A stretch of 64,000 bases of DNA. It comes from Anaerolineales bacterium (GTDB lineage: Bacteria; Chloroflexota; Anaerolineae; Anaerolineales; Villigracilaceae). The DNA is taken from assembly GCA_016932715.1 (NCBI GenBank), contig JAFGCG010000191.1, positions 1-64,000 on the forward strand, written 5' to 3'. The notes below the pieces were generated by a model. That model saw only the letters and a program-made list of their open reading frames with translations. It did not search any database and was not told where the DNA came from. The translations under genes were made by a program, and so were the position numbers. Of the stretch, positions 4,355 to 63,637 are shown piece by piece (the first letter of the stretch is position 1; each line of letters starts with the position of its first letter).

Positions 4355-4421
4355 GATCTTGTTGGCATCGATCGTGCAAGATAAATTTCCCGTTTAGTTT
4401 TTCAGAAACAAGTAACAGACT

Positions 4422-5684: not shown

Positions 5685-5753
5685 TGATTCGCTTGCAGAC
5701 GGGCCCTGCTTCTGCAAAAGAATTTTGCCGGGAAGTTGAAAGAAGAGGAGCTT

Positions 5754-7135: not shown

Positions 7136-7185
7136 AGATTGGAACTCTTTTTTGTAGTTGTGAATTGCTTTGAGGTTAGAGAGTA

Positions 7186-45717: not shown

Positions 45718-45746
45718 TTGACCTATTGACAGTCTGCCTATACAAT
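45718..45746 (+). promoter_or_regulatory. Promoter with -35 TTGACC and -10 TACAAT, predicted leaderless
   Basis: TTGACC (45718-45723), a 17-base spacer and TACAAT (45741-45746) fit a sigma-70 promoter. The ATG at 45753 lies six bases after the -10 box with no ribosome site, so transcription should begin at the A of the start codon. Confidence 0.6.
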
Positions 45747-45752
45747 ACACCT

Positions 45753-48119
45753 ATGCGCGATTGGTCACTCGCTCCGGGCGACCCGCTTTGTCTCAGCCTC
45801 GCCGCGGATGCCCGCCTTTCCATTCCGGACTATCTCAACGACCATATCTGGGAACTGAACCTGGGTAGCGGGGAACCTGCCGCGCTTTCGCTCCAGACCA
45901 CGTATGGGCTGCGGGCAAAAGCCATGCGCCTTTTCCTGCGTTTCAGCGAAGATGGGAAAAGTGTCAGTGCGCCGTCTGCTTTTGCGCTGCCGCCGACGAT
46001 CCGCCGTTTTTATCCGAATTTTCTCGTTCTCGACTATGCTCCTCTAAAGAGTATAGACGTTACAGCCGAGTACTGGGTTCCGCAGTCGAATGCGGTCAGC
46101 GGGCGCATCAGCGTTGCCAACAAAACCACTGCCATACGGAAGGTCCGCCTGGAACTCTGTGCCATGCTCACCCCGATCGACGGGCAGGGGATGACGGCGA
46201 CCCAAATGCAAATGGTCAACGTACTCGCCGGGCAAACGGGCGGACTCTTCCCGGTCCTTTTTTTGACCGGTGGTCCCGCGCCGGGTTCGAGTCCCTACCC
46301 CTCGCTCTTCCTGGACCTCGAGCTGGGTCCCGGCGCCGCGCGGACTCTCACCTGGGTGCAGGCTGCGACGGATAATTTGCAGGCTTCCTTTGACCTCGCC
46401 CGGCAAACCTGCGCGCGTCCCTGGGAAGCGGAAAAAGCCCGGCTGGAATTGCTCAATGCGGGCCAAACCATCGACATCCGCACCGGCGACAAAGACTGGG
46501 ACGCCGCCCTGGCGTTCAGCCAGAGCGCGGGCTTTGGCATGTTCTTCGCACCCGATACGCAGCTGCCCTGTCCATCCATTGTCGCTGTGCGCGGACCCGA
46601 TAACGGCTATTCGCCCAAGGGCGATGGCACGGACTATCCCACCGCGTGGAATGGGCAGACTCCCTTCGATGCTTATTATCTTTCCAGCGTGCTGCCCGCC
46701 TCGGAGGCTGCAAAGGACCTGCTGGAAAACTTCTTCGCGATCCAGCAAGAGGATGGTTCCATCGACGGGAAGCCGGGCATGGCGGGCCAGCGCGGGCGCT
46801 ACCTCGCCGTGCCGCTCCTTGCCAGCCTCGCCTGGAAACTCTATGAAAAGTCGGAAGACGAAAAATTTCTTAGTGAAGTCTTCCCCAAACTCCATAAGTT
46901 TTTCTGGTCCTGGTTTTCCCCTGAATATGATGAGGACCGGGATGGCTTGCCGCAATGGAAGCACATCCTGCAGACGGGCTTCGAGGATAACCCGCTCTTC
47001 GACGCCTGGCATGAATGGTCGCTGGGCGTGGATATCACCCAGGTCCACAGTCCGGCGCTCGAGGCGATGCTGTATCACGAGGCAGCCTGTCTCATCAAAA
47101 TGGCGGAGCAGCTCGATCAAGACGATATGCTGCCATTGCTTCATGAGCAGGCGGCGAAATTGCGCGGCTCCATCGAATCAACCTGGCAGTCGCGCACGGG
47201 TTTGTATCACTATCGCGACCGCGCCACGGGATTGAGTCTCGCGGGCAAGGTGCTGGTGAAGCAGCAGGGTTCAGGCACGGTCTCGCCGAAGCTGAAGTTC
47301 GAGCAGCCGATCCGCCTGTTGATCGAAGTCCAAACCCAAAGCCCGGCTGCGAAACGTCCGGAGGTCCGCATCCACCAGCTGGCGACAAAACCGGCGGACG
47401 AAATCGTGGCGAGTGGCAGCTATCAGTGGCGCAATCGCGGGTCCGTCTACACCACACAGAAGGTGTTCTCGAAGATCGCGAAAGTCTCGATACGCGGCTT
47501 GGACGACGAAGATACCGTCGTCATCAGCACACTGGATTTCACGACCGAAGATCACACGCTCTTCATGCCGCTCTGGGCTGGCATCCCGGATGAGCAGCAT
47601 GCCCAAACCATGATCGGCCGCGCCCTGCTGGATGCGGGCCGCTTCCACCGGCCGTTCGGCATTCCGGCCTGCCCGCATCTGACCCAGCCGGAAGCGGAGG
47701 CCATTTCACAAGCCGTCCATCTCCCGTGGAATCTGTTCATCTGTGAGGGCTTGTTGAAATATGGATTCCGTTCCGATGCCGCACGCTTGCTTGCGCACAT
47801 CATGAATGGCATCATTCAAAACCTGAAACAGAACCATGCCTTCCATGCGCGCTATCACGCCGAAAAAGGAACCGGCATGGGCGAACGCAACGCCCTCCAT
47901 GGACTGGCTCCGGTCGATTTGTTTTTACGCGTCCTCGGCATCGAAATCCTTTCCGGCACGCGGGTCAAATTGGAAGGCAGGAATCCCTTCCCCTGGGATG
48001 TGACGATCAACTACAAGGGGCTGAAAGTAAAACGGGGACTGGAAGAGACCGAAGTGATCTTTGCCAATGGCAGGTCGGTGACGATCACCGATCCCGAGCC
48101 ATTACTCGTCACCCTGTGA
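45753..48119 (+). CDS. GH63-like (alpha/alpha)6-barrel glycosidase-family protein
   Basis: The 788-residue protein has an N-terminal beta-rich part (about 1-200) and a helical barrel around residues 250-520 with WNGQTPFDAYYL, FFAIQQEDGSIDG, FDAWHEWSLGVDITQVHSPAL and LHEQAAKL. These helices and acidic residues resemble GH63-type mannosylglycerate/glucosylglycerate hydrolases. A second beta-rich segment (about 550-620) is inserted before the last helices. The likely substrate is a glucoside, but it is not fixed. The start at ATG 45753 is preferred because a promoter ends six bases before it. Confidence 0.62.
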   Translation: MRDWSLAPGDPLCLSLAADARLSIPDYLNDHIWELNLGSGEPAALSLQTTYGLRAKAMRLFLRFSEDGKSVSAPSAFALPPTIRRFYPNFLVLDYAPLKSIDVTAEYWVPQSNAVSGRISVANKTTAIRKVRLELCAMLTPIDGQGMTATQMQMVNVLAGQTGGLFPVLFLTGGPAPGSSPYPSLFLDLELGPGAARTLTWVQAATDNLQASFDLARQTCARPWEAEKARLELLNAGQTIDIRTGDKDWDAALAFSQSAGFGMFFAPDTQLPCPSIVAVRGPDNGYSPKGDGTDYPTAWNGQTPFDAYYLSSVLPASEAAKDLLENFFAIQQEDGSIDGKPGMAGQRGRYLAVPLLASLAWKLYEKSEDEKFLSEVFPKLHKFFWSWFSPEYDEDRDGLPQWKHILQTGFEDNPLFDAWHEWSLGVDITQVHSPALEAMLYHEAACLIKMAEQLDQDDMLPLLHEQAAKLRGSIESTWQSRTGLYHYRDRATGLSLAGKVLVKQQGSGTVSPKLKFEQPIRLLIEVQTQSPAAKRPEVRIHQLATKPADEIVASGSYQWRNRGSVYTTQKVFSKIAKVSIRGLDDEDTVVISTLDFTTEDHTLFMPLWAGIPDEQHAQTMIGRALLDAGRFHRPFGIPACPHLTQPEAEAISQAVHLPWNLFICEGLLKYGFRSDAARLLAHIMNGIIQNLKQNHAFHARYHAEKGTGMGERNALHGLAPVDLFLRVLGIEILSGTRVKLEGRNPFPWDVTINYKGLKVKRGLEETEVIFANGRSVTITDPEPLLVTL

Positions 48120-48347: not shown

Positions 48348-49352
48348 GTGATCTGGGTCGAATTCATCGTTTGCGCTGCATTGATCGTTCTGGCAGGCTC
48401 CTTACTTTCGAAATATGGAGATGTCATTGCTGAAAAAACCGGGTTGGGACGTGCCTGGATCGGCGCAATCCTGATCGCGGGTGTGACCTCGCTACCGGAA
48501 CTGGCTTCCGGCATCTCGGCGGTTGCCTGGTTGAACGTGCCGAACCTGGCTGCAGGCGCAGTGATGGGAAGCTGCCTCTTCAACCTGATGCTGATTGCCA
48601 TGATGGATTTGGCGTATCAGCCCGGGCGCGTACTTGCCAAGGCACAGGATGTCCACATCCTCTCCGGCGGGCTGGGCGTACTGCTACTGGGACTGGTTGC
48701 AATGGTGGTCCTGATCGGCCCGCCCATGAACGGGATTGGCGTGTTCGGTCTTGGACTGGTAAGTATCGTAATTGTTATCTTATATGCCATTGGCGGAACG
48801 ATGATCGCCGGGCTGGAAAAGGAGCGGGTGGGCGAAGTGCTTGCGAAAGAGGCTAAAGAGCTGGATTATGCCCATATCACCAGGCAGAAAGCTTTTCTTG
48901 TTTTCATTGCAAGCGCTGTTGCAGTGATCGTTCTGGGTGTCTGGCTGGCTTCCATTGGAGATCGCCTTTCCGCTACCACCGGACTCTCGCGCAGCTTTGT
49001 CGGCAACCTTTTCCTGGCGGTTTCCACCTCCCTGCCGGAGATTGCCGCGGGCATGGCTGCTATTCGACTCGGCGCGATCGATCTGGCGATTGGGAACGTG
49101 CTGGGGAGCAATCTGTTCAATATTCTCCTGTTGTCGATCTATGATCTCGCCGACGGAAGCGCCAACTTTTGGTCTTCGCTTAACAATGCCAATGGCTTCG
49201 CAGCTGTCATGGCAATGATGATGACCGGTGTGGTGATCATCAGTTTGATGTACCGCGCCTCGCCGCGTACTCCCTATCGCTTTTCGTGGGACGGGGTTGC
49301 GCTGATTTTTATGTATGTTGGTTCGATTGTCATGCTTTATTTTCTTGGATGA
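48348..49352 (+). CDS. Ca2+/Na+ antiporter (CaCA family, YrbG-like)
   Basis: The 334-residue membrane protein has about 10 helices and two inverted alpha repeats. Alpha-1 holds GVTSLPELASG and GAVMGSCLFN; alpha-2 holds STSLPEIAAGMAAIRLG and GNVLGSNLFNILL. The conserved PE glutamates needed for Ca2+ binding are present in both. The family exchanges Ca2+ for Na+ or H+ across the inner membrane. GTG 48348 has a good GAGGAGG site. A structured leader with a terminator hairpin precedes it, so expression is probably controlled at transcription elongation. Confidence 0.87.
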   Translation: MIWVEFIVCAALIVLAGSLLSKYGDVIAEKTGLGRAWIGAILIAGVTSLPELASGISAVAWLNVPNLAAGAVMGSCLFNLMLIAMMDLAYQPGRVLAKAQDVHILSGGLGVLLLGLVAMVVLIGPPMNGIGVFGLGLVSIVIVILYAIGGTMIAGLEKERVGEVLAKEAKELDYAHITRQKAFLVFIASAVAVIVLGVWLASIGDRLSATTGLSRSFVGNLFLAVSTSLPEIAAGMAAIRLGAIDLAIGNVLGSNLFNILLLSIYDLADGSANFWSSLNNANGFAAVMAMMMTGVVIISLMYRASPRTPYRFSWDGVALIFMYVGSIVMLYFLG

Positions 49353-49506: not shown

Positions 49507-51144
49507 ATGAAACAGAAGACAAAAACCGTAGTTGCCGGTGCATTGGGCGAATGCGTCCATGTGGCGGGCGTGACGAACTTTCTGCGTCTTGCAGAATCCG
49601 CGGGCTGGCGGACAGTCTTCCTCGGTCCCGCGGTGTCGGTGGAGGAGATGATTTCTGCCGCGCAGCGCGAAAACGCAGACCTGGTCGGGGTCTCCTACCG
49701 GCTCACGCCCGAGACGGGCGAACGATTGCTGGGGGAGTTCGCCGAATCCGCCTCGGAACTGCATGAGCGTGGAATCCGCTTTGCGTTTGGCGGGACACCG
49801 CCGGTTGCCGAACGCGTCCGCCAGATCGGGTTTTTCGAGCGCCTCTTTGACGGGAGCGAACCTCCGGAGGCGGTCCTCGCTTACTTAAAGGGCCAGCAGG
49901 CTGAGGCGTTGAGCGAAGCGGATTTTCCTCAGTCCGCAGTGGAACGCATCCAATGGAAATCCCCGTATCCGATCCTTCGCCATCACTTTGGTCTCCCCAC
50001 CCTGGAAGCGACGATCGAGGGGATCCAAAAGATCGCGGAGGCGCAAGCCCTGGATGTTATTTCGCTCGGCATCGACCAGGATGCGCAGGAGAATTTCTAT
50101 CACCCCGAGCGGCAGGACCCGCGCCGCAAAGGCGCGGGCGGTGTGCCGGTGCGTTCGGAGGAGGATTACCGCCTCTTGTACGCCGCCAGCCGGCGAGGGA
50201 ACTTCCCGTTGCTGCGCACCTATTCCGGTACCGATGACTTTCTTCGGCTCGCCGAGATGTACGTGGAAACGATCAACATTGCCTGGTGCGCGATCCCGTT
50301 GTTCTGGTTCAACCAGATGGACGGGCGCGGTCCCTGGGACCTGGAGGGTTCGATCCGCGAACATCAACGCGTGATGAAGTGGTACGGCGAGCATGACATT
50401 CCTGTGGAGTTGAACGAACCGCACCACTGGGGCATGCGCGATGCGCCCGATGTGGTGTTTGTCGTTTCGGCATATCTTTCGGCATATAACGCGCGGGCGT
50501 TCGGCGTGAAGGATTACATCGCGCAGCTCATGTTCAACAGCCCGCCGGGGCTTTCCGACGCGATGGACCTGGCGAAGATGCTGGCAGTTCTGGATCTGGT
50601 CGAGCCGCTTGAGAGTGATAATTTCCGTGTCTGGAAACAGACACGGATCGGTCTGCTCTCGCATCCACTTGACCCCGATGCTGCCCGCGGACATCTTGCG
50701 GCAGCGACATACCTTCAGATGTCACTCAAGCCTCATATCTATCACATCGTTGGGCACACGGAGGCGCATCACGCCGCGACCGCGCAGGACATCATCGAAG
50801 CGAGCAGGATGGCGCGCCGCGCCATCGAGAATGCCGTGCGCGGCGCACCGGATATGACGGCCGATCCCACGATCACGAAGCGGAGAAAGCAACTGGTGAA
50901 GGAAGCGGCCCTTTTGCTGGAAGCCATCGCCGGTCTCGCGGGACCCGAGGCGGCCGATCCATTCACCGACGCGGTGACCCTGGCACGAGCCGTGACCAGC
51001 GGACTCCTGGACGCGCCCCAGTTACGGGGCAACAAGTTCGGGCGTGGAGAAATCCGCACGAACATTGTCCATGGTGCAAATGTGGTTGTGGATGCAAAGG
51101 GAAAGATCCTTAAAGAGGAAAGACGTTTATCGAAGTTAATCTGA
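49507..51144 (+). CDS. Cobalamin-binding, glutamate-mutase-like protein
   Basis: The 545-residue protein begins with a B12-binding-type Rossmann domain (about 1-135): VVAGALGECVHVAGV, ADLVGVSYRL, and FAFGGTPP. In GlmS-type proteins the loop reads DxHxxG; here it is CVHVAG, so the His that ligates cobalt is present but the Asp is a Cys. Residues 145-545 form a barrel-like domain with ALDVISLGIDQD and LEGSIREHQRVMKWY, the latter resembling methylaspartate mutase E. The arrangement would be a GlmS-GlmE-like fusion. It may rearrange a carbon skeleton using B12, but the substrate is unknown. AAAGGAG lies 10 bases before the ATG. Confidence 0.55.
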   Translation: MKQKTKTVVAGALGECVHVAGVTNFLRLAESAGWRTVFLGPAVSVEEMISAAQRENADLVGVSYRLTPETGERLLGEFAESASELHERGIRFAFGGTPPVAERVRQIGFFERLFDGSEPPEAVLAYLKGQQAEALSEADFPQSAVERIQWKSPYPILRHHFGLPTLEATIEGIQKIAEAQALDVISLGIDQDAQENFYHPERQDPRRKGAGGVPVRSEEDYRLLYAASRRGNFPLLRTYSGTDDFLRLAEMYVETINIAWCAIPLFWFNQMDGRGPWDLEGSIREHQRVMKWYGEHDIPVELNEPHHWGMRDAPDVVFVVSAYLSAYNARAFGVKDYIAQLMFNSPPGLSDAMDLAKMLAVLDLVEPLESDNFRVWKQTRIGLLSHPLDPDAARGHLAAATYLQMSLKPHIYHIVGHTEAHHAATAQDIIEASRMARRAIENAVRGAPDMTADPTITKRRKQLVKEAALLLEAIAGLAGPEAADPFTDAVTLARAVTSGLLDAPQLRGNKFGRGEIRTNIVHGANVVVDAKGKILKEERRLSKLI

Positions 51145-51149
51145 GTAGA

Positions 51150-51224
51150 AACGTTGCGAAGGCGGCGTCATGGCGACACTCATCCTGCGAGTGAAGTTCG
51201 AAGGATCAGAACCTTCGCAACGTT
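51150..51224. repeat. Nested palindrome in the gap before the opine dehydrogenase gene
   Basis: AACGTTGCGAAGG (51150-51162) is exactly complementary to CCTTCGCAACGTT (51212-51224). Inside lie CACTC-ATCCTGC-GAGTG and a CGAAGG/CCTTCG pair. The 75-base unit has the look of a mobile palindromic repeat and lies within a presumed operon. Confidence 0.75.
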
Positions 51225-51246
51225 CATCCTGACACTGGAGGAATCA

Positions 51247-52347
51247 ATGGCGAAAAAATATGTAGTGATCGGCGCGGGGCATGGCGGGAAGGCAATGGCG
51301 GCGCATCTGGCTTTGATGGGGTTTACGGTCAATTTGTACAACCGGACGCCGGAGCATGTGGAAGTGATCAAAAAACGCGGCGGCATCGAACTGGAAAGCA
51401 CCGAAGGCGGTCCGCATGGATTTGGTGAACTGGCTCTGGTCACGTCCGATATCGCGGCGGCGATCGACGGGGTCGAAGTGATCATGGTCGTTTTGCCCTC
51501 CTCCGCGCATGCGGACATTGCCAAGACGATGGCGTCTCACCTGAAGAACGGGCAGATCGTCGTCCTGCATCCGGGGCGAACCTGCGGGGCGCTGGAATTC
51601 GTCAAGGTGATCCGCGACAACGGCTGCACAGCGGATGTCACGGTGGCGGAGGCGGAAACCTTCATCTACGCCTCCCGCTCGGATGGGCCCGTGCAGGCGC
51701 GCATCTTCCGCATCAAGGAGGCGGTGCCGCTGGCGGCGCTCCCCGCCGCGCGGACACAGTGTGTTCTGGATGCGATCTGCGAAGCCTACCCACAATTCAT
51801 CGACGGTGTGGATGTGCTGAATACCGGCATGAACAACATGGGCGCGATCTTCCATCCGGCCCTGACGCTGCTCAACATGGGCTGGATCGAAGCCACACAT
51901 GGCGATTACCAGTTTTACATCGATGGGGTCACGCCTTCGGTGGCGCGCGTACTCGAAGTGCTGGACCGTGAGCGCGTCACGGTTGCCTCGGCGCTGGGCA
52001 TCCGCGCCCGCACGTCGCTGGAATGGCTGAAACTGGCGTATGACACGACCGGCGCGGACCTGCATGAAGCCATCCATAACCAGCCCGGTTATTACGGTAT
52101 CAAAGCTCCGGCTACGTTGAATCACCGTTATATTTTCGAGGATGTGCCGATGAGCCTGGTCCCGATCGCTTCCCTTGGAAAGCGCTATGGTGTTTCGGTG
52201 CGCGGCATGGAAAGCATGATCAAGATCGCCAGTATTATTCATCATACCGATTACTGGCGGCGCGGGCGGACGGTTGAAAAACTCGGCCTGGAACAATGGA
52301 GCGTCAGCGAGTTGACGCGCTTTGTCCAGGAGGGGACGATCGATTGA
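51247..52347 (+). CDS. NAD(P)-dependent opine dehydrogenase family protein
   Basis: The 366-residue protein has a Rossmann domain (VIGAGHGGKAMAAHLAL, VVLPSSAHADIAK) and a C-terminal helical domain beginning at NMGAIFHPALTLLNMG, the NxxxHxxxxLxN active-site pattern of octopine/nopaline dehydrogenases. They reductively join the amine of an amino acid to a 2-keto acid, or oxidise such a compound. GGAGG lies six bases before ATG 51247. In context it probably acts on the product of the mutase-like protein or on amino-acid derivatives for the two synthetase-like genes. Confidence 0.8.
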   Translation: MAKKYVVIGAGHGGKAMAAHLALMGFTVNLYNRTPEHVEVIKKRGGIELESTEGGPHGFGELALVTSDIAAAIDGVEVIMVVLPSSAHADIAKTMASHLKNGQIVVLHPGRTCGALEFVKVIRDNGCTADVTVAEAETFIYASRSDGPVQARIFRIKEAVPLAALPAARTQCVLDAICEAYPQFIDGVDVLNTGMNNMGAIFHPALTLLNMGWIEATHGDYQFYIDGVTPSVARVLEVLDRERVTVASALGIRARTSLEWLKLAYDTTGADLHEAIHNQPGYYGIKAPATLNHRYIFEDVPMSLVPIASLGKRYGVSVRGMESMIKIASIIHHTDYWRRGRTVEKLGLEQWSVSELTRFVQEGTID

Positions 52348-52401
52348 GGAAATCCTGGCTTTGCTGGGATCATACAGTTCAATGTGAAAAGGAGTAATCT
52401 A

Positions 52402-53745
52402 ATGTCTGGAATCGCTGGAGTGGCCCGTGCGGGCCAAACCGAACTCGTGGACCAAATGCTGGATAAAATGTCGCATCGCGGCCGGGATTGGCGCGAGACA
52501 CGCGAGAGCCAGGGGACAACATTTGGCGTGGTCGGTTCGAAAATTCAAAAGCATGACCGAGCTGAGTTGAAATCCAGCGACCTCGTTCGTGACCGTGCCG
52601 GGAAAGGACATTTTGCCCAGGCTCAGGTACGCCCGGGCGGTTTTGTCCTCACCCGCGGCAGGCTGGGGGTACGTCCTCTTTATTATGGCTGGACCCGCGA
52701 CGGCGCATTTTGCTTCGCCTCAGAAATGAAAGGACTATTGGCGGCGGCGCGCGATATTCATGAATTGCCGCTGGGCTGGTCCTTTGACGGTAAACAGATG
52801 AACAAGCTTACGGAGATCGTCGTTCAGGTGCCTGAGGCAGGCGAGCCCGAGTCCTTCGCAGTGGAACTGCGCTCCCGCCTGGAAAAAGCCGTTCAGAACC
52901 GCATCGGTGATGGGAATGTCGGCGCGTGGCTGTCGGGAGGTTTGGATTCGAGCGTCATGGCTGCGCTGGCTCGCCCCCATGTGGACAGGCTCCACACCTT
53001 TGCAGCCGGCCTGCCGGGCGCACCGGACCTCGAATTTGCGCGGGCGGTCGCGGAATTCATCCATTCCGATCATCACGAGTGCATTGTCCAGCCAGAGGAA
53101 ATCTTTGCAACATTGTCGGACGCGATCTATGCGCTCGAGTCGTTCGACGCCCTGCTGGTACGGTCGAGTGTGATGAACTATCTGGTTGCCAAAGCCGCCT
53201 CGGAATTCGTGCCGGCGGTCTTTTCCGGCGAGGGAGGGGATGAGTTGTTTGCCGGCTACGAATATTTGAAGGCGCTCGACCCGGCCAACCTTTCTTCGGA
53301 ACTTGTGGACATCACCAATCGATTGCACAACACTGCCCTGCAGCGTGTGGATCGCTGTTCCTCCGCATTTGGAACTGTGGCGCATGTGGCATTCCTGGAT
53401 CCGGATGTGGTGGACTATGCGTTGAAAATCCCCGCCGGACTCAAACTCCGCAATGGCGTGGAAAAATGGGTCCTGCGCGAGGCAATGAAGGGCTTACTGC
53501 CCGCTTCGGTCCTGCGGCGGCCCAAAGCCAAATTCTGGGAGGGCGCGGGCGTGGAGGACTTCCTGGCACAGTATGCCGAACAAAAGATCAGCGCTGCGGA
53601 TTTCGAACGCGAGCGGCAATTGCCGAATGGTTTGCGCCTGAATACGAAAGAGGAACTCTACTACTATCGCATCTTCCGTGAGCATTTTGGCGAATTCGAT
53701 GATCTGTCGTGGATGGGCCGCACAAAGGGATCTCCTGTCGCTTAA
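52402..53745 (+). CDS. Asparagine-synthetase-like ligase without a glutaminase site
   Basis: The 447-residue protein has the layout of AsnB, but it begins MSGIAG, so the catalytic Cys2 is Ser. Its N-terminal domain is about 48 residues shorter than that of the next gene; the NGEIYNY and SDTE glutamine-binding stretches are missing. The synthetase part keeps the PP-loop SGGLDSS near residue 177 and GEGGDELFAGY, but the usual RMSMAxGLEARVPFLD is RCSSAFGTVAHVAFLD. It should adenylate a carboxylate without hydrolysing glutamine, as beta-lactam synthetases do. Clear gene-duplication relation to the next gene (ITNxLHNTxLQR block). Confidence 0.75.
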   Translation: MSGIAGVARAGQTELVDQMLDKMSHRGRDWRETRESQGTTFGVVGSKIQKHDRAELKSSDLVRDRAGKGHFAQAQVRPGGFVLTRGRLGVRPLYYGWTRDGAFCFASEMKGLLAAARDIHELPLGWSFDGKQMNKLTEIVVQVPEAGEPESFAVELRSRLEKAVQNRIGDGNVGAWLSGGLDSSVMAALARPHVDRLHTFAAGLPGAPDLEFARAVAEFIHSDHHECIVQPEEIFATLSDAIYALESFDALLVRSSVMNYLVAKAASEFVPAVFSGEGGDELFAGYEYLKALDPANLSSELVDITNRLHNTALQRVDRCSSAFGTVAHVAFLDPDVVDYALKIPAGLKLRNGVEKWVLREAMKGLLPASVLRRPKAKFWEGAGVEDFLAQYAEQKISAADFERERQLPNGLRLNTKEELYYYRIFREHFGEFDDLSWMGRTKGSPVA

Positions 53746-53833
53746 CGATTATCAATAACGGGAGGCGCCTCGGCTGAACCTGGAAATCCATCTTCCAAAA
53801 TTAAATCCAAATCCGTTCTATAAGGAGTTGAGC

Positions 53834-55327
53834 ATGTGTGGAATCGCTGGGGTCTTTCAACAACCAGCAAATCGAATTGTCAAAACAATGGTAAAGAATA
53901 TTTCTCATCGCGGACCCGATGGTCACGGCGTGATGGATATTCCAAATGGGACGCTGGGGCATACGCGTCTTGCCATCCTGGATGTGGAAGGCGGGCATCA
54001 GCCAATGGATTATCAGGACACGACGATCGTCTTCAATGGCGAAATCTACAATTATAGAGAGTTAAAGCGCAGGCACCTTGCCAGTTTACATGTGAAGACA
54101 CATTCGGATACGGAAGTACTGATCCACTTGTATCGAAAATTCGGGCCGAAATGTGTGGAGTTGCTGGATGGTATGTTTGCCTTTGCCATCCAGCATAACG
54201 GAGAAATATTCCTGGGGCGCGATCCGATTGGGATCAAGCCGCTTTACTATGGTACGAGCAGGGATGGAAAACGTTTTTTCTTTGCATCTGAGATCAAGGC
54301 ACTGATTGGGATGGTTGAAAGCATCAAAGAATTCCCGGCCGGGCACTGGTATCACTCGCGCCTTGGCTGGCAGAAATACTATCAACTCGAAGAAACGATC
54401 CATCCGTTCGATGGAACAGAAGATGAGGCATTGCCAGCCATCAGATCCACACTGCGCGCAGCGGTCTATAAACGCCTGCTTGCCGATGTGCCGGTTGGTG
54501 TGAGCCTGAGCGGCGGGCTGGACAGCAGTATCGTCACGACCTTGGCGCGTGAAGAGTCTGAAGAATTGCATTCCTTTGCGGTGGGCGTGCCGGGAAGTTC
54601 CGATCTGGCGGCTGCCCGGCACATGTCCAAATATCTCGATACGATCCACCACGAATACGTGTACAGCACGCAGGATATGGTCGAGATATTGCCCGAAGTC
54701 CTTTACCATCTCGAATCGTTTGACCCTGCGCTGGTGCGTAGTGCCATCCCGAATTATTTCCTTGCAAAGCTGGCTTCTGAGCATGTCAAGGTCATTCTCA
54801 CCGGCGAAGGCGCGGACGAAGTCTTTGCAGGATATGATTATCTGGCGAAATACGAAACATCTGACGGTTTGCAGGATGAAATGCTCTACATCACGAACGC
54901 GCTCCACAACACCAATTTGCAGCGCGCCGACCGCATGTCCATGGCGTTTGGATTGGAAGCGCGCGTGCCTTTCCTGGATGTTCAATCTGTTTCGCTTGCG
55001 ATGGGCATTCCTGCCGGCTGGAAGTTGCATCGTTCAAGAGCGCCGAAAGCGCTGCTACGCCAATCCTTTGTGGAAGACCTTCCTCTGGAGATTATCAATC
55101 GTCCCAAGGAAAAATTTTCGAAGGGCGCGGGTTCGTCCGATCTTATTACCCAATGTGCCGATGCTGAAATTTCAGATCAGGAGTTCTTATCGGAGCGGGA
55201 GCGCCTTAAGCAGGAATGGGACTACGAATTGCAGAACAAGGAAACGTTGTATTATTACAGGATGATACGCGAATTCTATGACGATGAATGGATCCTTCCC
55301 ACCATGGGAAAGAGCCGCAGTTTATAA
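53834..55327 (+). CDS. asnB: Asparagine synthase (glutamine-hydrolysing), intact paralogue
   Basis: The 497-residue protein is a complete class B asparagine synthetase: MCGIAG with Cys2, NGEIYNY, HSDTEVL, the PP-loop SGGLDSS near residue 225, GEGADEVFAGY and EARVPFLD. Ribosome site AAGGAG is seven bases before ATG 53834. The preceding gene is a degenerate sister, and the two share ITNALHNTNLQRADR-type blocks, so they may form a pair in which this one supplies ammonia or amidates and the other ligates. That pairing is inferred. Confidence 0.85.
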   Translation: MCGIAGVFQQPANRIVKTMVKNISHRGPDGHGVMDIPNGTLGHTRLAILDVEGGHQPMDYQDTTIVFNGEIYNYRELKRRHLASLHVKTHSDTEVLIHLYRKFGPKCVELLDGMFAFAIQHNGEIFLGRDPIGIKPLYYGTSRDGKRFFFASEIKALIGMVESIKEFPAGHWYHSRLGWQKYYQLEETIHPFDGTEDEALPAIRSTLRAAVYKRLLADVPVGVSLSGGLDSSIVTTLAREESEELHSFAVGVPGSSDLAAARHMSKYLDTIHHEYVYSTQDMVEILPEVLYHLESFDPALVRSAIPNYFLAKLASEHVKVILTGEGADEVFAGYDYLAKYETSDGLQDEMLYITNALHNTNLQRADRMSMAFGLEARVPFLDVQSVSLAMGIPAGWKLHRSRAPKALLRQSFVEDLPLEIINRPKEKFSKGAGSSDLITQCADAEISDQEFLSERERLKQEWDYELQNKETLYYYRMIREFYDDEWILPTMGKSRSL

Positions 55328-55335
55328 TCCACAGC

Positions 55336-55908
55336 ATGCAGACGTTTGATTGGTATACCTGGGTGATTTTGCCCCTCATTGTTTTCCTGGCACGCTTTGT
55401 CGACGTGTCACTGGGAACCATGCGTATCATCTTCCTCTCGCGAGGCAAGAAATATCTTGCTCCCCTGCTTGGTTTTGTAGAAGTGTTCATCTGGATCACG
55501 ATCGTATCCGAGATCGTACGCGGTGCTCACAACATTGTTGCCTATCTGGCATATGCCGGCGGGTTTGCGGTGGGGAATTATGCCGGCATGCTCCTCGAGG
55601 AGAGGCTGGCGATCGGGACTTTGGTGATACGCATCATCCTTTCTAAAAATGGATCCGCGCTGGTCGAGCGCCTGCGCGCGGAAGGCTACGGGGTCACATA
55701 TGTGGATGGACACGGTGCCAGCGGTCCTGTGATACTCGTTTACACGGTTGTGATGCGGAAGGAACTGGTGCGCATTGTTGACCTGATCAAGGAGGTTTGC
55801 CCCAAAGCCTTCTTTACCGTGGAGGAACTGCGCTCTGCGCAGCAGGGCATCTTCCCCATACGTTCCTCTTCACGATTGGATCGAATCACACGCAGGAAAT
55901 CAAGGTAA
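55336..55908 (+). CDS. UPF0316/DUF2179-like membrane protein
   Basis: The 190-residue protein has three hydrophobic segments (about residues 6-95) with RFVDVSLGTMRIIFLSRGKK, then a soluble domain with RIILSKNGSALVERLRAEGYGVTYVDGHGA, the DUF2179-like part. The family (UPF0316, YebE/YitT-like tails) is widespread and of unknown function. ATG 55336, nine bases after the previous stop, is chosen over an in-frame upstream ATG that overlaps that gene. It may share its transcript. Confidence 0.75.
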   Translation: MQTFDWYTWVILPLIVFLARFVDVSLGTMRIIFLSRGKKYLAPLLGFVEVFIWITIVSEIVRGAHNIVAYLAYAGGFAVGNYAGMLLEERLAIGTLVIRIILSKNGSALVERLRAEGYGVTYVDGHGASGPVILVYTVVMRKELVRIVDLIKEVCPKAFFTVEELRSAQQGIFPIRSSSRLDRITRRKSR

Positions 55909-56251: not shown

Positions 56252-56425
56252 AATTACAGGGTTGATGTTTGGGGGCAAGCACAGGAAGAACCATGACCTG
56301 CTGAAACAACGCTCAATCAAAATACCGCCAGGATCATGAAATTTTCGTGATGGAGGAATGTCTTTGGCGGAGGTTTCGCCTGTACTTTTTATCGTTGGAT
56401 GCAAAATGGGTCCCGTTGGTCTTGC

Positions 56426-58165
56426 ATGATACAGTCTGAATTATCCACGATATATTCACACCTGATTGCGCTGTACGGCCAATTTACCGGCCCTGCGGTG
56501 TTCGAGCGTCTGGGCGCGATCCTGGAACGCTATCGCAAGCTGCCGGCATTTCAGGGGGGACAGGATCACCTCCTTTCCGAGCGCGACAGTGTTCTGATTA
56601 CCTATGGGGACCAGCTGCGCGAGCGGAATACCCGTCCCTTGCAGACCCTGAATAATTTTTGCGGGCAGTATCTTTCCGGATTGGTCAACAGCATCCATAT
56701 ATTGCCGTTCTTTCCATACTCTTCGGATGACGGGTTTTCAGTCAGCAATTATCGAGCGGTGAACCCCAGGTTCGGTCGCTGGGATGATGTGTCGCGCCTC
56801 GGTCGTCATTTTCGTTTGATGTTCGATGCGGTCATCAACCATATCTCCGTTCACCACGAGTGGTTCCAGGCGTTTTTGAGGGATGAGCTGCATTACCGGG
56901 ATTATTTCATTGTAGTGGATGGCGCCCCGGACCTCTCGCAAGTGGTCCGCCCGCGTGCCCAGCCGCTCCTCACCCGGTTCGATACAGACGCAGGTCCCAG
57001 ACAGGTATGGACGACATTCAGCGCAGACCAGGTCGATCTCAATTTTAAAAACCCTGAGGTACTCCTGGAGATCATCGATCTGCTCCTGTTCTACGTGGAG
57101 CAGGGCGCCCGACTCATTCGCCTGGACGCGATTGCCTACCTGTGGAAGGAGATTGGAACATCCTGTATTCATCTGCCGCAGACACATCGCATCGTCCGTC
57201 TCTTCCGCGCAGTGCTCGATGTCCTGGCGCCGCATGTCCTGCTGATTACGGAAACAAACGTTCCTCATCGCGACAACCTCTCCTATTTCGGCGACGGTGA
57301 AGATGAGGCACAGATGGTCTATAACTTTGCTTTGCCGCCGCTGGTCCTGCACACATTCTCCACCGGGAGCAGTGCTGCCCTGTCGAAATGGGCAGCGGAA
57401 TTGAGATTGCCTTCCCAGCGCACCACGTTTTTCAACTTCCTGGCGTCGCATGATGGGATCGGCATCAATCCCGCGCGCGGCATACTCTCCGACAGCGAAA
57501 TCGATAGGCTGGTCGAGCGCGCCGTTCGGCACGGCGGCCTGGTGTCCTACAAGGATGATCCGGGCGGCACGCCCGTCCCCTATGAACTCAACATCAATTA
57601 TTTCGATGCGCTCTCGCATCCGGGCGCGCACGAGTCTCTCAGCACGCAGGTGGACCGCTTCATGACCGCCCAGGCGATCATGCTGGCGCTGGTCGGTGTG
57701 CCGGGTATCTATTTTCACAGCCTGTTTGGATCGCGCGGCTGGCGCGCAGGCGTGGATCTGACCGGACGGAATCGCAGCCTCAATCGCCAGAAGTTCGAAC
57801 TCGCCGCGTTCGAACGCGAATTGATGGATGAGTCGTCCCTGCGGTATCAGGTCTTTAGCCGCTATGCCCAGCTGCTGGTCGCGCGCAGCGCTTCCTCAGC
57901 CTTTCACCCGCACGGGGGGCAGGAAGTGCTGGATTGCGGCGCAGCGATCTTCGCGTTGCTGCGTGTTTCTCCTGATGGAGATCAACGTGTGCTGTGCCTG
58001 CATAACATTTCGGACCAGGCTCAAAACGCGACGGTGAATTGGAAAGATGTTTTTCGCTTGTCTTCCAGGCAGGGTACCAACCTCATCGATCTGACAGATC
58101 ATTCCTTGAATGGCAGCCTGGCTTTACAGCCCTATCAAACTTTATGGTTAAGGATCAGGAAATGA
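56426..58165 (+). CDS. Glucosylglycerate phosphorylase-like GH13_18 enzyme
   Basis: The 579-residue protein is a GH13 subfamily 18 enzyme (sucrose/glucosylglycerate phosphorylase): INSI-type strand with INSIHILPFFPYSSDDGFS, FDAVINHIS, IRLDAIAYLWKE with nucleophile Asp near residue 234, LLITETNVPH with acid/base Glu near 275, and FLASHDGIG. GH13_18 phosphorylases cleave glucosides with phosphate to glucose 1-phosphate. The adjacent GH63 and GpgS genes make glucosylglycerate the likely substrate. ATG 56426 is preferred by comparison with family N-termini; an in-frame ATG at 56399 is possible. It overlaps the next gene by four bases. Confidence 0.8.
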   Translation: MIQSELSTIYSHLIALYGQFTGPAVFERLGAILERYRKLPAFQGGQDHLLSERDSVLITYGDQLRERNTRPLQTLNNFCGQYLSGLVNSIHILPFFPYSSDDGFSVSNYRAVNPRFGRWDDVSRLGRHFRLMFDAVINHISVHHEWFQAFLRDELHYRDYFIVVDGAPDLSQVVRPRAQPLLTRFDTDAGPRQVWTTFSADQVDLNFKNPEVLLEIIDLLLFYVEQGARLIRLDAIAYLWKEIGTSCIHLPQTHRIVRLFRAVLDVLAPHVLLITETNVPHRDNLSYFGDGEDEAQMVYNFALPPLVLHTFSTGSSAALSKWAAELRLPSQRTTFFNFLASHDGIGINPARGILSDSEIDRLVERAVRHGGLVSYKDDPGGTPVPYELNINYFDALSHPGAHESLSTQVDRFMTAQAIMLALVGVPGIYFHSLFGSRGWRAGVDLTGRNRSLNRQKFELAAFERELMDESSLRYQVFSRYAQLLVARSASSAFHPHGGQEVLDCGAAIFALLRVSPDGDQRVLCLHNISDQAQNATVNWKDVFRLSSRQGTNLIDLTDHSLNGSLALQPYQTLWLRIRK

Positions 58166-59940
58166 ATTTGGATATCGATTCAAGATATTTGAAGCTCCTC
58201 AAAGACCGGATCAATCTGCGCCAGATCCCCTTCAGTGACCGCGGCTCACGGCTGCTGATTTTTCAATCCGAGCAGCACCTCATTGTCCGGCTGGCGGAGC
58301 GCTGGTTCAAACGCGAGGGCCAGCTGGCTGCCTACCGGACGCGCGCGCCCCTGATCGATCAATGGGTCTTTACCGATGGAGGAGGCAAGCCTCTCGAACT
58401 CAAGCCAACGACGTACCCGCATCGGATCGATTTCGAAACCGCCATTGGAACATTCAGCCTGGCATTCGTGGATATCGAAACCGTGCTGCTCACCCTGCCG
58501 CCTGTCCAGTGTGCAATCAAGTTCAATGCCAATCTGGATAAGATTCAGACCGACCGGCGCGGCGGCGTGCTGCGCCTGACCGGGGATATCCGCCGCAATG
58601 TTGCGTATACGACCAATGCACACATCGTTCAGCATTCCACGACGGCTTTCGGCACCGACAACCAGATTGTCCACCTGTACCTGGATGCGACCGAGGGGGG
58701 CAAGTCGCTGCTGTTGAATATTACGCCTCGTCTGGGATTCAATCGCTACATTCCTGAACCCGCCAACGTGATGGAGGAGGCGGCGCAGCGCTGGCATGAC
58801 TGGTTCGCGAGCGCGCCGCAGGTGGAGCAGGCATATGAGGAACAATATTATTACGCCTGGTGGGTGATGCGCGCCGGTCTCATCTCCACGCGTTTCTATA
58901 CAACCCGGGAGGCGATGACGCCGTCTATGATCCACTATGTCGGCGTCTGGCAGTGGGATTCCTATTTCCATGCGCTGGCGTACCGCCACCTGGAGAAACG
59001 CCTGGCGCATGACCAGATCCGTATCGTGCTGGATCACCAGCGTGAAGACGGCATGATTCCCGATGCGATCCATGACGAGGGAGCAGTGACCCATATCGAT
59101 CATCCCATCGATGCCGATGTAACGAAACCGCCCCTGCTTGCCTGGGCGGCCTACAAACTCTTCGAGCAGGATGGCGACCGCGAGTTCCTGGATGAGATCT
59201 ACGAACCGATTGTGCGTTCGAACATCTGGTGGTTCGAGAACAACGACACGGATGGCAACGGCCTGTGCGAGTATCAGCACCCCTATTCTTCGGGGCTGGA
59301 CGACAGTCCATTGTGGGATGAGGGGATGCCGGTTGAATCGCCCGATCTCAATACCTATCTTTATCTCCAGCAGGAAGCCCTCGCGAAAATTGCGCGCGTG
59401 ATCGGCAAAGAGCAGGACGCGCAGATGTGGCGGGACCGGGCCGAAGCCATGGCGCGCCGCCTGGTCGATCTCGCCTGGGATGCCGGGAGCGGCCTCTTTT
59501 GGGCGCGCCGCAACGGGTCGCGCGTGAACGTTCGGACTCCCTTCAGCCTGTTCCCGTTGATCACGGGTCAGATGCCGCCCGAGATTTCCAGCCGGCTGGT
59601 TGCCCATCTCACCGATGAACGCCAGTTCTGGGCGCGCTATCCGGTCCCCACGGTTGCCATGGATGACCCAAAATACGACCCGCTGCTCATGTGGCGCGGA
59701 CCCACCTGGGTGAATGTCAATTACCTCCTGATCGAAGGTTTGCAGCGTTCGGGTTACCCTGACCTGGCGCGTGAGCTGCGCCGGCGCACGCTGGACCTGA
59801 TCTGCTGCCGCGACGATATTTATGAGTACTATCACCCGATGACAGGCGAGAATCCACCCAGGGCGGCTTCCATGTTTGGCTGGTCTTCGGCCGTGTTCAT
59901 TGACCTGGCGATCCAGGCTGCCCGGGAAAAAACGCAATGA
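58162..59940 (+). CDS. Glucosylglycerate/mannosylglycerate hydrolase-like GH63 enzyme
   Basis: The 592-residue protein has an N-terminal beta domain and an (alpha/alpha)6 barrel (about residues 230-590) with WQWDSYFHALAYRHLEK, QREDGMIPDAIHD, YSSGLDDSPLWDEG (general-acid Asp region) and MWRGPTWVNVNYLLIEGL. These are the GH63 mannosylglycerate/glucosylglycerate hydrolase features. It hydrolyses the solute to sugar and glycerate in the cytoplasm. The start overlaps the previous stop (ATGA) and an AGGATCAGGAA ribosome site is present. It overlaps the GT4 gene by four bases. Confidence 0.83.
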   Translation: MNLDIDSRYLKLLKDRINLRQIPFSDRGSRLLIFQSEQHLIVRLAERWFKREGQLAAYRTRAPLIDQWVFTDGGGKPLELKPTTYPHRIDFETAIGTFSLAFVDIETVLLTLPPVQCAIKFNANLDKIQTDRRGGVLRLTGDIRRNVAYTTNAHIVQHSTTAFGTDNQIVHLYLDATEGGKSLLLNITPRLGFNRYIPEPANVMEEAAQRWHDWFASAPQVEQAYEEQYYYAWWVMRAGLISTRFYTTREAMTPSMIHYVGVWQWDSYFHALAYRHLEKRLAHDQIRIVLDHQREDGMIPDAIHDEGAVTHIDHPIDADVTKPPLLAWAAYKLFEQDGDREFLDEIYEPIVRSNIWWFENNDTDGNGLCEYQHPYSSGLDDSPLWDEGMPVESPDLNTYLYLQQEALAKIARVIGKEQDAQMWRDRAEAMARRLVDLAWDAGSGLFWARRNGSRVNVRTPFSLFPLITGQMPPEISSRLVAHLTDERQFWARYPVPTVAMDDPKYDPLLMWRGPTWVNVNYLLIEGLQRSGYPDLARELRRRTLDLICCRDDIYEYYHPMTGENPPRAASMFGWSSAVFIDLAIQAAREKTQ

Positions 59941-61154
59941 AGAAGGTCGCTCTGTTGCATTACTCCGCGCCGCCCATCGTCGGCGGCGTCGAAAGTGTGC
60001 TGGGATACCAGGCGCGCCTGATGGCAGATGCCGGTCATCAGGTGCGGATTGTGGCGGGCCGCGGCGAGCAGACCGACCCGCGCATCCCCTTCATCCATCT
60101 TCCATTAACCGATTCGCGTCACCCTGAGATTCTCGAACTCAAAGCTGAGTTGGACCAGGGGCGCCTCCCCTCCGGGTTTGATGAACTGGTCGCGGCACTC
60201 CGCGCGCTGCTGGTCGAGGCTCTGGAGGATGTAGACATTCTGATCGCTCACAACGTTTGCTCGCTCAGCAAGAATCTTGCTCTGACCGCCGCGCTGCGGA
60301 ATCTCGCAGACCGCAATCCCCCGCGTATGATCTTGTGGCACCATGATCTGGCATGGACAACCCCGCGCTATCGGGCTGAACTCCATGATGGTTATCCGTG
60401 GGATCTGCTCAGGCAGGCCTGGCCCGGGGTGAGGCAGGTCACAGTCTCTGAAATGCGCCAGCGTGAGCTCGCCGAACTGTTCCAGATCGACCAGGACGAG
60501 ATCACGGTGATCCCCAATGGTGTGGATACAGCCAGGTTCCATAAACTTGAAAAGCAGACCAGTGACTATGTGAAGCAGCTGGACCTGCTCAACGCCGCTC
60601 CGCTGCTTCTGCTGCCTGTGCGGATTACGCCCCGAAAGAATATCGAATTGGCATTGCGTCTCTGTGCGAGCTTGCGGCGGCATTTCCCTGACATAAAGTT
60701 GATCGTCACCGGTCCCCTGGGACCGCACAATCCCGCAAATGTGAAATACTTCGAGAAACTGACTGCACTGCGCAAAGAGCTGGGAGTGGAGAACGCAGTC
60801 CGTTTTCTTGTCGAATTAACCTCAGAATACATCCCCGATGAAGTCATTTCGGATTTCTATCATCTTGCCGATGCCCTGTTCCTGCCCTCGCGCGAGGAGG
60901 GATTTGGTATCCCGATTCTGGAGGCAGGCTTTGCAGGCTTGCCGATCTTTTGCTCGGATATCCCTCCGCTGCGGGACCTGGGCGGTTCGAACGCAACTTA
61001 TTTTTCGCCGGATGCTGATCCCAGTGAGCTTGCGGACATCCTGGCGGATCGCCTTTCCTCCAATGCTGTCTTTCGGATGCGCACGCAGGTGCGCCGGCAG
61101 TATACGTGGGAACGTATTTACGCGCGCCAGATTGCGCCGCTGCTCACGGCGTGA
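59937..61154 (+). CDS. GT4 glycosyltransferase of the glucosylglycerate cluster
   Basis: The 405-residue GT-B protein carries PPIVGGVESVLGYQARLM at the N-terminus, ILWHHDLAWTTPRY, ITVIPNGVDTARFH and LPSREEGFGIPILEAGFAG with the EX7E glutamates. ATGA overlap places it in the operon between the GH63 gene and gpgS. In Rhodopirellula and Persephonella, GT4 enzymes add mannose to glucosyl-3-phosphoglycerate; that activity is one possibility here. No sequence signature seen settles this, and it could equally act on another acceptor. Confidence 0.7.
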   Translation: MKKVALLHYSAPPIVGGVESVLGYQARLMADAGHQVRIVAGRGEQTDPRIPFIHLPLTDSRHPEILELKAELDQGRLPSGFDELVAALRALLVEALEDVDILIAHNVCSLSKNLALTAALRNLADRNPPRMILWHHDLAWTTPRYRAELHDGYPWDLLRQAWPGVRQVTVSEMRQRELAELFQIDQDEITVIPNGVDTARFHKLEKQTSDYVKQLDLLNAAPLLLLPVRITPRKNIELALRLCASLRRHFPDIKLIVTGPLGPHNPANVKYFEKLTALRKELGVENAVRFLVELTSEYIPDEVISDFYHLADALFLPSREEGFGIPILEAGFAGLPIFCSDIPPLRDLGGSNATYFSPDADPSELADILADRLSSNAVFRMRTQVRRQYTWERIYARQIAPLLTA

Positions 61155-61169
61155 GTGTCAGGAGGTTGT

Positions 61170-62981
61170 ATGAAGACCCCGTCAAAGACCAAACTCTTCA
61201 AAAAAGTTCTTGTCCCGCTGGTATATGGCTGTGAACAAACCTCTGCCATCAACGCCGCGCGCACCATTGCCGGAGAGGACAATGTGATGCTCGTGGGACT
61301 GGTCTATGTCCCGGAGGCGGAATCGCTCAGCGGCGCCGCAGTGCCTGTCCGGGAAGTGCGCCAGATGCTCAGGAAGCTTTCCGGCGTCCGATATCGCACC
61401 GAGGTGTACGCTGCTGCTACTCACCGGCCCTGGCATGAAATCATTGGGGTTACGGAGAGAGAAAAGCCCGATCTCCTGGTTTTGGAATATCCCTGCCAGT
61501 TCGAAACGCTCAACACGACCCTGGCGGAAGTATTGGCGCACCCGCCCTGCGATATTGCGATCGTCAACTCACATGTCTCGGCCAGTCTGGATAACGTGTT
61601 GATCCCGATCCGCGGCGGTCCCTATGCGGAACTGGCGCTGCGCATTGCATTATCCATGCGACGGTTTCGCCAAATCGATATCACTTCCCTGCATATGGTT
61701 TCCACGAAGTCTGACCGTAAACAGGATGCCGCTTTTCGCGGAATCGAACGCGTGTTGAAACAACTGCCTGAGGTGAAGGAACATAATGTCGCCACAGATG
61801 ACTCTGCCGAGGCGCTCTTCGAGACGTCACGCCAGTTTGATCTGACGGTGATGGGCGCCAGTGCCCGGTCGGTGGATGAGGTCGCTTCCATCGGCCCGGC
61901 GGCGGAACGGATGATGAGGGAGGGTAAATGCGGCCTGATCGTTGTGAAAACCAAACAGCCGCCGCGCTTTCCCCTGGAGAGCGAAGAAGTCGGTCAGACC
62001 GCCATCTCCGTCCTGGTGGACAAGTGGTTTGCGGAAAACACGTTCCACGCGGATGAGTTCCAGGACCTGAATTATCTATTGAGCCTGAAACGCGAGCGCG
62101 GAGTCTCCATCAGTCTGGCACTCCCTGCGCTCAACGAAGCAGAGACGGTGGGAAATGTGATCCAAACCATCAAACAGGCATTGGTGCTGGATGCTCCTTT
62201 GCTGGATGAAATTGTTTTGATCGATTCCAATTCTGAAGACCGGACGCGGGAAATTGCCCAGGCATTGGGCGTTCCGGTTTACATCCATCAAGCGGTTTTG
62301 CCACAGTACGGGGCGCGGCGCGGCAAGGGGGAAGCGCTCTGGAAAAGTCTGTATTGCACGAAAGGCGACATCCTGATCTGGCTGGATACGGACATCGTCA
62401 ACATTCATCCGCGCTTTGTCTATGGTTTGATCGGTCCCTTGCTCCTGCGGCCCGACGTCCAGTTCATCAAAGGCTTTTACAAGCGTCCATTGCGAGTAGG
62501 CGGCAAGATCCAGGCTGGCGGCGGAGGCCGGGTCACCGAACTGACGGCGCGCCCGCTCCTCAACCTGTTCTACCCTGAACTCTCCGGCGTGATCCAGCCT
62601 CTTTCCGGAGAATATGGCGGGCGCCGGTCTGCGCTCGAGCAGTTTGGCTTTTTCTCGGGCTATGGTGTGGAAATTGGGATGTTGATCGATGTGCTCGACA
62701 AGTTTGGCTTGAACGCCATCGCCCAGGTGGATCTACAGGAGCGCATCCATCACAACCAGCCGCTGGAGGCGTTGAGCAAAATGTCCTTTGCCATCATTCA
62801 GGCTGTGATGCGCAAGCTGGAAACCCGTTATGGACAGAGCATTCTGGAGAACGTCAATCAGACTATGAAATTGATCCGTTATGAGGGGGAACGTTTTGTG
62901 CTGGACATAGAAGAGATCGCCGAACGTGACCGTCCACCCATGCTGGAGATTCCCGAATATGGCGAACGCCCGCGCGCGTGA
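61170..62981 (+). CDS. gpgS: Universal stress domains fused to glucosyl-3-phosphoglycerate synthase (GpgS)
   Basis: The 603-residue protein joins two UspA-like domains (about 1-135 and 136-270; VLVPLVYGCEQ, VLIPIRGGPYAELALRIAL, VMGASARSVDE) with a GT81 GpgS domain (about 300-600). The latter has ISLALPALNEAETVGNVI, IDSNSEDRT, GKGEALWKSL, WLDTDI and GGGGRVTELTARPLLNL. GpgS transfers glucose from NDP-glucose to 3-phosphoglycerate, the first step in making glucosylglycerate. ATG 61170, after AGGAGG, is chosen over a GTG five codons earlier. A separate phosphatase (GpgP) is not seen in the window. Confidence 0.88.
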   Translation: MKTPSKTKLFKKVLVPLVYGCEQTSAINAARTIAGEDNVMLVGLVYVPEAESLSGAAVPVREVRQMLRKLSGVRYRTEVYAAATHRPWHEIIGVTEREKPDLLVLEYPCQFETLNTTLAEVLAHPPCDIAIVNSHVSASLDNVLIPIRGGPYAELALRIALSMRRFRQIDITSLHMVSTKSDRKQDAAFRGIERVLKQLPEVKEHNVATDDSAEALFETSRQFDLTVMGASARSVDEVASIGPAAERMMREGKCGLIVVKTKQPPRFPLESEEVGQTAISVLVDKWFAENTFHADEFQDLNYLLSLKRERGVSISLALPALNEAETVGNVIQTIKQALVLDAPLLDEIVLIDSNSEDRTREIAQALGVPVYIHQAVLPQYGARRGKGEALWKSLYCTKGDILIWLDTDIVNIHPRFVYGLIGPLLLRPDVQFIKGFYKRPLRVGGKIQAGGGGRVTELTARPLLNLFYPELSGVIQPLSGEYGGRRSALEQFGFFSGYGVEIGMLIDVLDKFGLNAIAQVDLQERIHHNQPLEALSKMSFAIIQAVMRKLETRYGQSILENVNQTMKLIRYEGERFVLDIEEIAERDRPPMLEIPEYGERPRA

Positions 62982-63636: not shown

Positions 63637-63637
63637 T

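Follow-up and report, generated by a model that had tools for sequence, protein, structure and literature searches.

A B12-mutase homologue and an opine dehydrogenase with residues of the acid-preferring type form a conserved gene pair in an Anaerolineales bacterium and its relatives

The window considered here is a stretch of 64,000 nucleotides from contig JAFGCG010000191.1 of an Anaerolineales bacterium (assembly GCA_016932715.1), whose genome comprises 4.9 Mb in 195 contigs. It contains four consecutive genes that encode a homologue of the B12-dependent mutases (mut), an opine dehydrogenase (odh) and two ligases related to asparagine synthetase B, or AsnB (asn1 and asn2). The conserved unit of this four-gene set is the mut-odh pair, and the AsnB-like genes are an optional part of the locus. 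The enzyme folds are known and their combination is strictly conserved. No earlier report of it was found: a literature search, which left most subscription journals outside, returned no paper that pairs a glutamate or methylaspartate mutase with an opine or octopine dehydrogenase and none on octopine dehydrogenase in Anaerolineae. The reading tentatively favoured as a whole is that mut and odh carry out the biosynthesis of an acidic opine, which is amidated in this strain and is perhaps a compatible solute; we infer both the product and its role.

A preliminary description of this DNA had proposed that the four genes belong to one pathway of carbon-skeleton rearrangement, reductive coupling and amide formation. 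The expected conservation in related genomes holds for mut and odh, and only partly for asn1 and asn2. Of 61 related genomes, some of them incomplete, the 23 that have mut are exactly those with an odh of at least 70% identity, and the remaining 38 lack both (Fisher 3e-17, phylogeny not corrected for). The mut gene is full-length in 22 of the 23 genomes and split across two contigs in the other one. Among the 38 pair-negative genomes, four have weak mut matches limited to the B12 domain and one (G059) encodes an odh relative of 32% identity. The best 80 of 210 relatives were fetched, and odh lies immediately 3' of mut in 72 of the 75 loci that have at least 1.2 kb downstream. The three exceptions have odh directly upstream of mut (L050), odh after an asn1-type gene (L061) or an odh fragment only (L097). 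The exact four-gene order was absent from all 80 fetched loci, several of which are cut by contig ends, and this would favour the notion that the four genes are unlinked neighbours. The identical distribution and the adjacency of mut and odh refute that notion for these two genes and leave it extremely improbable for the set.

The mut survey covers Chloroflexota genomes and plasmids, and a restriction to Chloroflexota is not claimed. In a sample of 400 genomes of the phylum, 59 have some mut match. According to the authors' reading of the match list, 26 of these are near full coverage, one is partial (G070), one is a divergent copy (G237) and the remaining matches are short and confined to the B12 domain. 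No plasmid relative of mut, or of the first 700 residues of the divergent protein (locus L111, discussed below), was found at E 1e-3. The GlmE-family matches in G037 and G046 were dropped as mut relatives, the loci being read as methylmalonyl-CoA-mutase-type proteins. MutL (PF13941) was likewise dropped as a specific partner, since it is found in 57 of the 61 relatives and is not discriminating.

The four genes occupy positions 49507-55327 on the same strand, with a purine-rich ribosome site before each gene and gaps of 102, 54 and 88 nucleotides, in agreement with the preliminary description. Its domain assignments were also confirmed, with PF02310 in the mut protein, PF02317 in odh and PF00733 in both AsnB-like proteins. 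Between positions 49300 and 56500, 11 terminator-like sites were called, none of them inside the three gaps; the scan carries little information because the count is close to the shuffle mean (7.7, standard deviation 2.9).

The B12-binding domain of the mut protein (6.8e-10) is placed at the N-terminus, and the C-terminal ~420 residues have no Pfam match. A model predicted from an alignment of 57 proteins (mean pLDDT 86, pTM 0.79) has the E chain of glutamate mutase as its closest solved fold in Foldseek (1cb7_B; E 6.5e-15, TM 0.59/0.66), followed by OraE of ornithine 4,5-aminomutase and then by the acyl-CoA mutases IcmF and MCM. The modelled catalytic domain is a TIM barrel related to those of GlmE, OraE and MCM. 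Given this fold and the N-terminal B12 domain, mut looks like a single-chain GlmS+GlmE-like protein with the B12 domain fused in front. The Clostridium GlmS/GlmE enzyme shares with it the B12 domain and the TIM-barrel partner. On the other hand, mut combines both parts in one chain led by the S-like domain, the identity is ~15%, and the motif CxHxxG takes the place of DxHxxG. In OraE, which ranks directly below glutamate mutase, the B12 domain presumably lies at the opposite end from that of mut. The B12 site GECVHxxG (G14 E15 C16 V17 H18, G21) is invariant in 57/57 aligned mut proteins; the His and the Gly are kept and the Asp is replaced by Cys. A profile alignment with GlmE (hhalign) has a probability of just 0.65%, yet it is colinear up to the C-terminal GxxDxP and, weak as it is, places Glu419 of mut opposite GlmE Glu330, which we take to be an adenosyl contact. 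Only one mut protein among the 61 genomes scores above the Pfam PF06368 cut-off, and an adenosyltransferase (PF01923) is encoded in the genome of the window.

The odh protein matches the Octopine_DH family (PF02317, 1.8e-48) and the opine dehydrogenase ArODH/CENDH (1bg6; 263 bits, 38.6% identity over 347 columns). It has the Rossmann GxGxxG motif of the family. In an alignment of 72 proteins, from the window and 71 loci, the catalytic dyad of opine dehydrogenases is present, with His203 in 72/72 and Asp299 in 70/72, the other two having Glu. Arg111, Gly199 (ArODH 198) and Arg33 (ArODH 35) are each found in 72/72 proteins. The significance of these residues comes from the text of Telek et al. 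(2024), who described six mODH enzymes from the metagenome of the Sativali hot spring at 67 °C, ~40% identical to ArODH, which favour L-Asp and L-Glu as amino acids, pyruvate as the partner and, for the most part, NADPH as the cofactor (PMC10787698). The same text attributes the acidic preference to Arg111 and Gly198, as shown with reciprocal double mutants, and regards Arg35 as an indicator of NADPH use (PMC10787698). The window odh resembles the mODHs in its degree of identity to ArODH and in having Arg111, Gly198, Arg35 (present in five of the six mODHs), Asn at 34 and Thr/Ser at 36; the two are likened through these published residues and the ArODH identity. From its sequence, odh looks like an NADPH-type enzyme tuned to acidic amino acids. 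The kinetics published for these relatives, with KM values of 0.5-25 mM and kcat values of 0.1-1.6/s, are modest on Asp (PMC10787698), which leaves room for another acidic natural substrate, and we infer that this is the mut product. A term search of the main text of PMC10787698 found no mention of an operon, a gene cluster or a mutase.

Among eight family members compared, only two have the Arg111/Gly198 pair, the window odh and that of L111, each beside a mut homologue. The six without it are ArODH, four plasmid proteins and the G059 protein (Lys at 111), and no mut homologue was found on plasmids or in G059.

Based on their co-inheritance and adjacency, mut and odh are taken as steps of a single pathway, and very probably they are two steps of one shared route. 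That the product is an acidic opine is probable, with less assurance. The mut enzyme would rearrange an acidic amino acid, for which the nearest precedent is the conversion of glutamate into a 3-methylaspartate-like product. Then, odh would join the rearranged amino acid with pyruvate to give an acidic opine of the N-(1-carboxyethyl) type. In loci with an AsnB-like or ATP-grasp ligase, a carboxylate would subsequently be converted into an amide, with nitrogen from glutamine in the case of asn2 and from free ammonia or another amine in the case of asn1. The product may act as a compatible solute or salt-stress metabolite. The pathway of the preliminary description fits the domain evidence and the strict mut-odh pair, and is not supported for the four-gene set as stated. 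Neither the residues for acidic substrates in odh nor the salt-related neighbours figure in that description.

The divergent pair of L111 (G237), a single locus, supports the association of a mutase with an opine dehydrogenase. Its gene at 4233-8027 encodes a protein of 1264 residues, in which an N-terminal part 39-40% identical to mut is fused to MutL (PF13941, 4.8e-80). The upstream gene, an odh with Arg111/Gly198 and without Arg35, overlaps it by 4 nucleotides. The neighbours include an AAT-family hydrolase (PF03417) and, by the authors' sequence reading, an RpiR-like/SIS-domain regulator, an APC-type permease and an oligopeptide ABC system. L111 may be a catabolic counterpart, and the product of the pathway is possibly also used as food. 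This setting of uptake and breakdown, together with an odh devoid of Arg35, lends some weight to a catabolic role of the window-type pair as well, in which odh would cleave an acidic opine or oxidise an amino acid and mut would return the branched acidic amino acid to glutamate. The B12 mutase and opine dehydrogenase classes are both reversible, and the CitMHS-type permeases found at 9/32 loci with window-type pairs could import carboxylates. However, the NADPH-type Arg35 in 72/72 window-type odh proteins and the ATP-consuming ligases that half of the loci have close by argue against such a module, which is considered unlikely.

The two ligases differ in their glutaminase part. The preliminary description was right that the first lacks a usable glutaminase site: asn1 starts with MSGIAG, without Cys2, and ~50 residues that include the glutamine-binding loops are absent. 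The asn2 protein starts with MCGIAG and keeps the loops FNGEIYN and SDTEV. Against the NCBIfam AsnB model PRK09431 (cut-off 499), asn2 scores 550.5 and is of the asparagine synthetase B type, whereas asn1 scores 318 and falls outside. AsnB (1ct9) is the best relative of asn1 in the PDB with 171 bits, compared with 84 bits for beta-lactam synthetase and 54 bits for CarA; asn2 reaches 303 bits with 1ct9. The lactam synthetases have presumably lost the glutaminase as asn1 has, but asn1 is nearer to AsnB than to the beta-lactam and carbapenam synthetases. Members of the asn1 subfamily with a resolved start, L205 aside, begin with MSGIAG, MAGIAG, MTAIAG, MAAIAG or MSAIAG and lack Cys2; in the aligned proteins the glutamine loops are mostly or wholly gone and SGGLDSS is kept.

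The presence of ligases was counted in the 54 of 80 loci whose sequence continues for at least 5 kb downstream, each AsnB-like match being labelled by the better-scoring query, so that a few AsnB relatives of 48-49% identity (e.g. L054, L075) are counted as asn2-like. An AsnB-like or ATP-grasp ligase lies within 6 kb in 27/54 loci, mostly as one AsnB-like gene: asn2-like in 17 (four with a methyltransferase), asn1-like in six (one with an ATP-grasp ligase) and an ATP-grasp ligase alone in four. None of the searched ligase types occurs within 6 kb in the other 27. Both asn types occur together only in the window and in L046, among 104 loci, and the order in L046 differs.

Some loci show further variation. 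An ATP-grasp gene of the D-Ala-D-Ala-ligase-like type stands by mut-odh in L038, L045, L049 (6943-7977), L056 and L072, where it apparently takes the place of AsnB. Straight after odh, L035, L044, L054, L075 and L078 have a class I methyltransferase gene, whose enzyme could methylate the pathway product. In G049 (C20, 8409-11385), an asn1-type gene and odh fragments lie on a different contig from the intact mut-odh pair, which may reflect the decay of a second copy or a break in the assembly.

It could be argued that the mut-odh pathway is real and that the AsnB genes encode nothing more than asparagine synthetases, placed beside it by chance, as the score of asn2 above the AsnB equivalog cut-off and the half of the loci without a ligase would suggest. 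Yet asn1-type proteins (at least 52% identity), which have lost the glutaminase, are confined to mut-positive genomes (6/23 against 0/38), and asn2-like matches with the asn1 query occur in 9/23 mut genomes and 1/38 others. AsnB homologues also occur in 12/33 mut loci and in 0/53 control windows, and other loci have ATP-grasp ligases near the pair. This count, and those of the neighbours below, compare the 33 of 80 loci with at least 16 kb to 53 control windows, each 17.6 kb long, that come from three genomes; a query's matches in its own source locus were left out, and those in near relatives of that locus were kept. A chance placement is considered rather improbable, and the evidence on amidation of the product by the neighbouring ligases is evenly balanced.

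Table 1. Genes of the mut-odh region in the window
Feature	Position	Strand	Description
mut	49507-51144	+	545 residues; single-chain GlmS-GlmE-like adenosylcobalamin mutase homologue (PF02310 and fold model)
odh	51247-52347	+	366 residues; opine dehydrogenase with acidic-amino-acid, NADPH-type residues (PF02317)
asn1 (AsnB-like 1)	52402-53745	+	447 residues; AsnB-like ligase without glutaminase (PF00733)
asn2 (AsnB-like 2)	53834-55327	+	497 residues; AsnB-type amidotransferase with complete GATase (PF00733)
DUF5698/DUF2179 protein	55336-55908 (start ~55336)	+	PF18955, PF10035; fifth same-strand gene
Na+/Ca2+ exchanger-family protein	48348-49352	+	PF01699 (9.7e-28); upstream of mut
MGH1-like glycoside hydrolase	45726-48119		797 residues
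Sucrose-phosphorylase-like GH13	56399-58165	+	Putative glucosylglycerate-type module
MGH1-like glycoside hydrolase	58039-59940	+	Putative glucosylglycerate-type module
GT4	59937-61154	+	Putative glucosylglycerate-type module
USP-GpgS	61155-62981	+	Putative glucosylglycerate-type module; GpgS equivalog PRK13915, 373.8 bits (cut-off 262)
Mrp-type Na+/H+ antiporter subunits G, F, E	62984-64000	-	Larger subunits continue past the window end

The four genes sit between a Na/Ca exchanger-like gene and the glucosylglycerate and Mrp genes (Table 1), and 8 nucleotides separate asn2 from the DUF5698/DUF2179 gene. Glucosylglycerate phosphorylases are assigned to GH13_18 in the cited text (PMC11009771), and the GH13 and hydrolase genes of the window are a putative part of a glucosylglycerate-type module. 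Homologues of the DUF5698/DUF2179 protein, the commonest neighbour after odh, occur in 17/33 long loci against 0/53 control windows. Those of the Na+/Ca2+ exchanger and of the 797-residue glycoside hydrolase each occur in 6/33 against 0/53. An antiporter or exchanger homologue is present in 14/33 loci and 0/53 windows when CitMHS is counted (p 1.8e-7) and in 11/33 without it (p 8e-6). With the independent family model PF00999, 12 genes were detected in five selected genomes and five of them are at most 22 kb away from mut, spread over four of the five genomes; none is near in G034. No significant enrichment was obtained for NhaA (2/33, p 0.14), two CPA2 queries (3/33 each, p 0.05), DUF389 (3/32), ATP-grasp (3/32, p 0.05) or the methyltransferase (2/32).

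The ten neighbour proteins scanned comprise NhaA, a CitMHS/ArsB-type permease, two PF00999 antiporters (one with a cyclic di-AMP receptor domain), CBS, DUF389, LacI, methyltransferase and ATP-grasp ligase proteins, and one without a match. Opine dehydrogenases also make staphylopine-like metallophores, and the product could be an opine of that type or a signalling opine. The ten proteins include no nicotianamine-synthase-like protein or metal receptor, a weak argument as most single-locus neighbours are unannotated, and such a product is judged very unlikely. The Na+/H+ antiporters, the Na/Ca exchanger and the glucosylglycerate genes nearby suggest instead a role in solute balance or salt stress, and from this genomic context an osmolyte function of the product is possible.

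Besides the loci without a ligase, several points weigh against the favoured reading of an amidated acidic opine that serves as a compatible solute. Ligation of cobalamin by the His of CxHxxG is plausible from the sequence, not proven. In the weak hhalign alignment, GlmE Arg100 and Arg149 fall on Gln194 and Tyr239 of mut, and the region of Arg66 gives no settled match. These three arginines form the grip of GlmE on glutamate. By this weak alignment, mut probably does not hold glutamate as GlmE does, and its substrate may be other than glutamate. Arg35 is also found in the four plasmid opine dehydrogenases and is thus no marker of the mut-odh pair. The L111 odh is only 23% identical to that of the window, so its Arg/Gly match depends on a distant alignment. 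No riboswitch was detected at the gathering threshold in the window, 20 short loci and 8 long loci. With regard to salt, the antiporter p values overstate the association, because the families were chosen post hoc and the loci share ancestry, and the CitMHS-type permease could be a carboxylate carrier, not an ion antiporter. The glucosylglycerate module is not enriched near mut elsewhere (GpgS 1/33, GH13 2/33, GH63-like 0/33, GT4 2/33 against 1/53 controls). The carriers, cultivated species such as Anaerolinea thermolimosa and Bellilinea caldifistulae among them, come from mixed habitats that include groundwater, and some species are freshwater organisms or hot-spring thermophiles; high salt is consequently not the common factor.

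A more extended reading joins all of these elements. In Chloroflexota, a new family of single-chain B12 mutases would provide a branched acidic amino acid, which an acid-specific, NADPH-type odh would couple with pyruvate; interchangeable ligases would then amidate it to an opine-type compatible solute not known before, and the sister mutase-MutL/odh cluster would import and degrade the same kind of compound. In its entirety this combination is doubtful.

If the favoured reading of mut-odh as an acidic-opine pathway is true, the acid-preferring opine dehydrogenases known from a metagenome for biocatalysis would gain a candidate natural partner and role, and an additional family of B12 mutases would be recognised. 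The pathway would also offer a possible osmolyte to a phylum in which, according to the cited text, Chloroflexus and Roseiflexus species have no reported genes for ectoine or betaine synthesis (PMC7824335).

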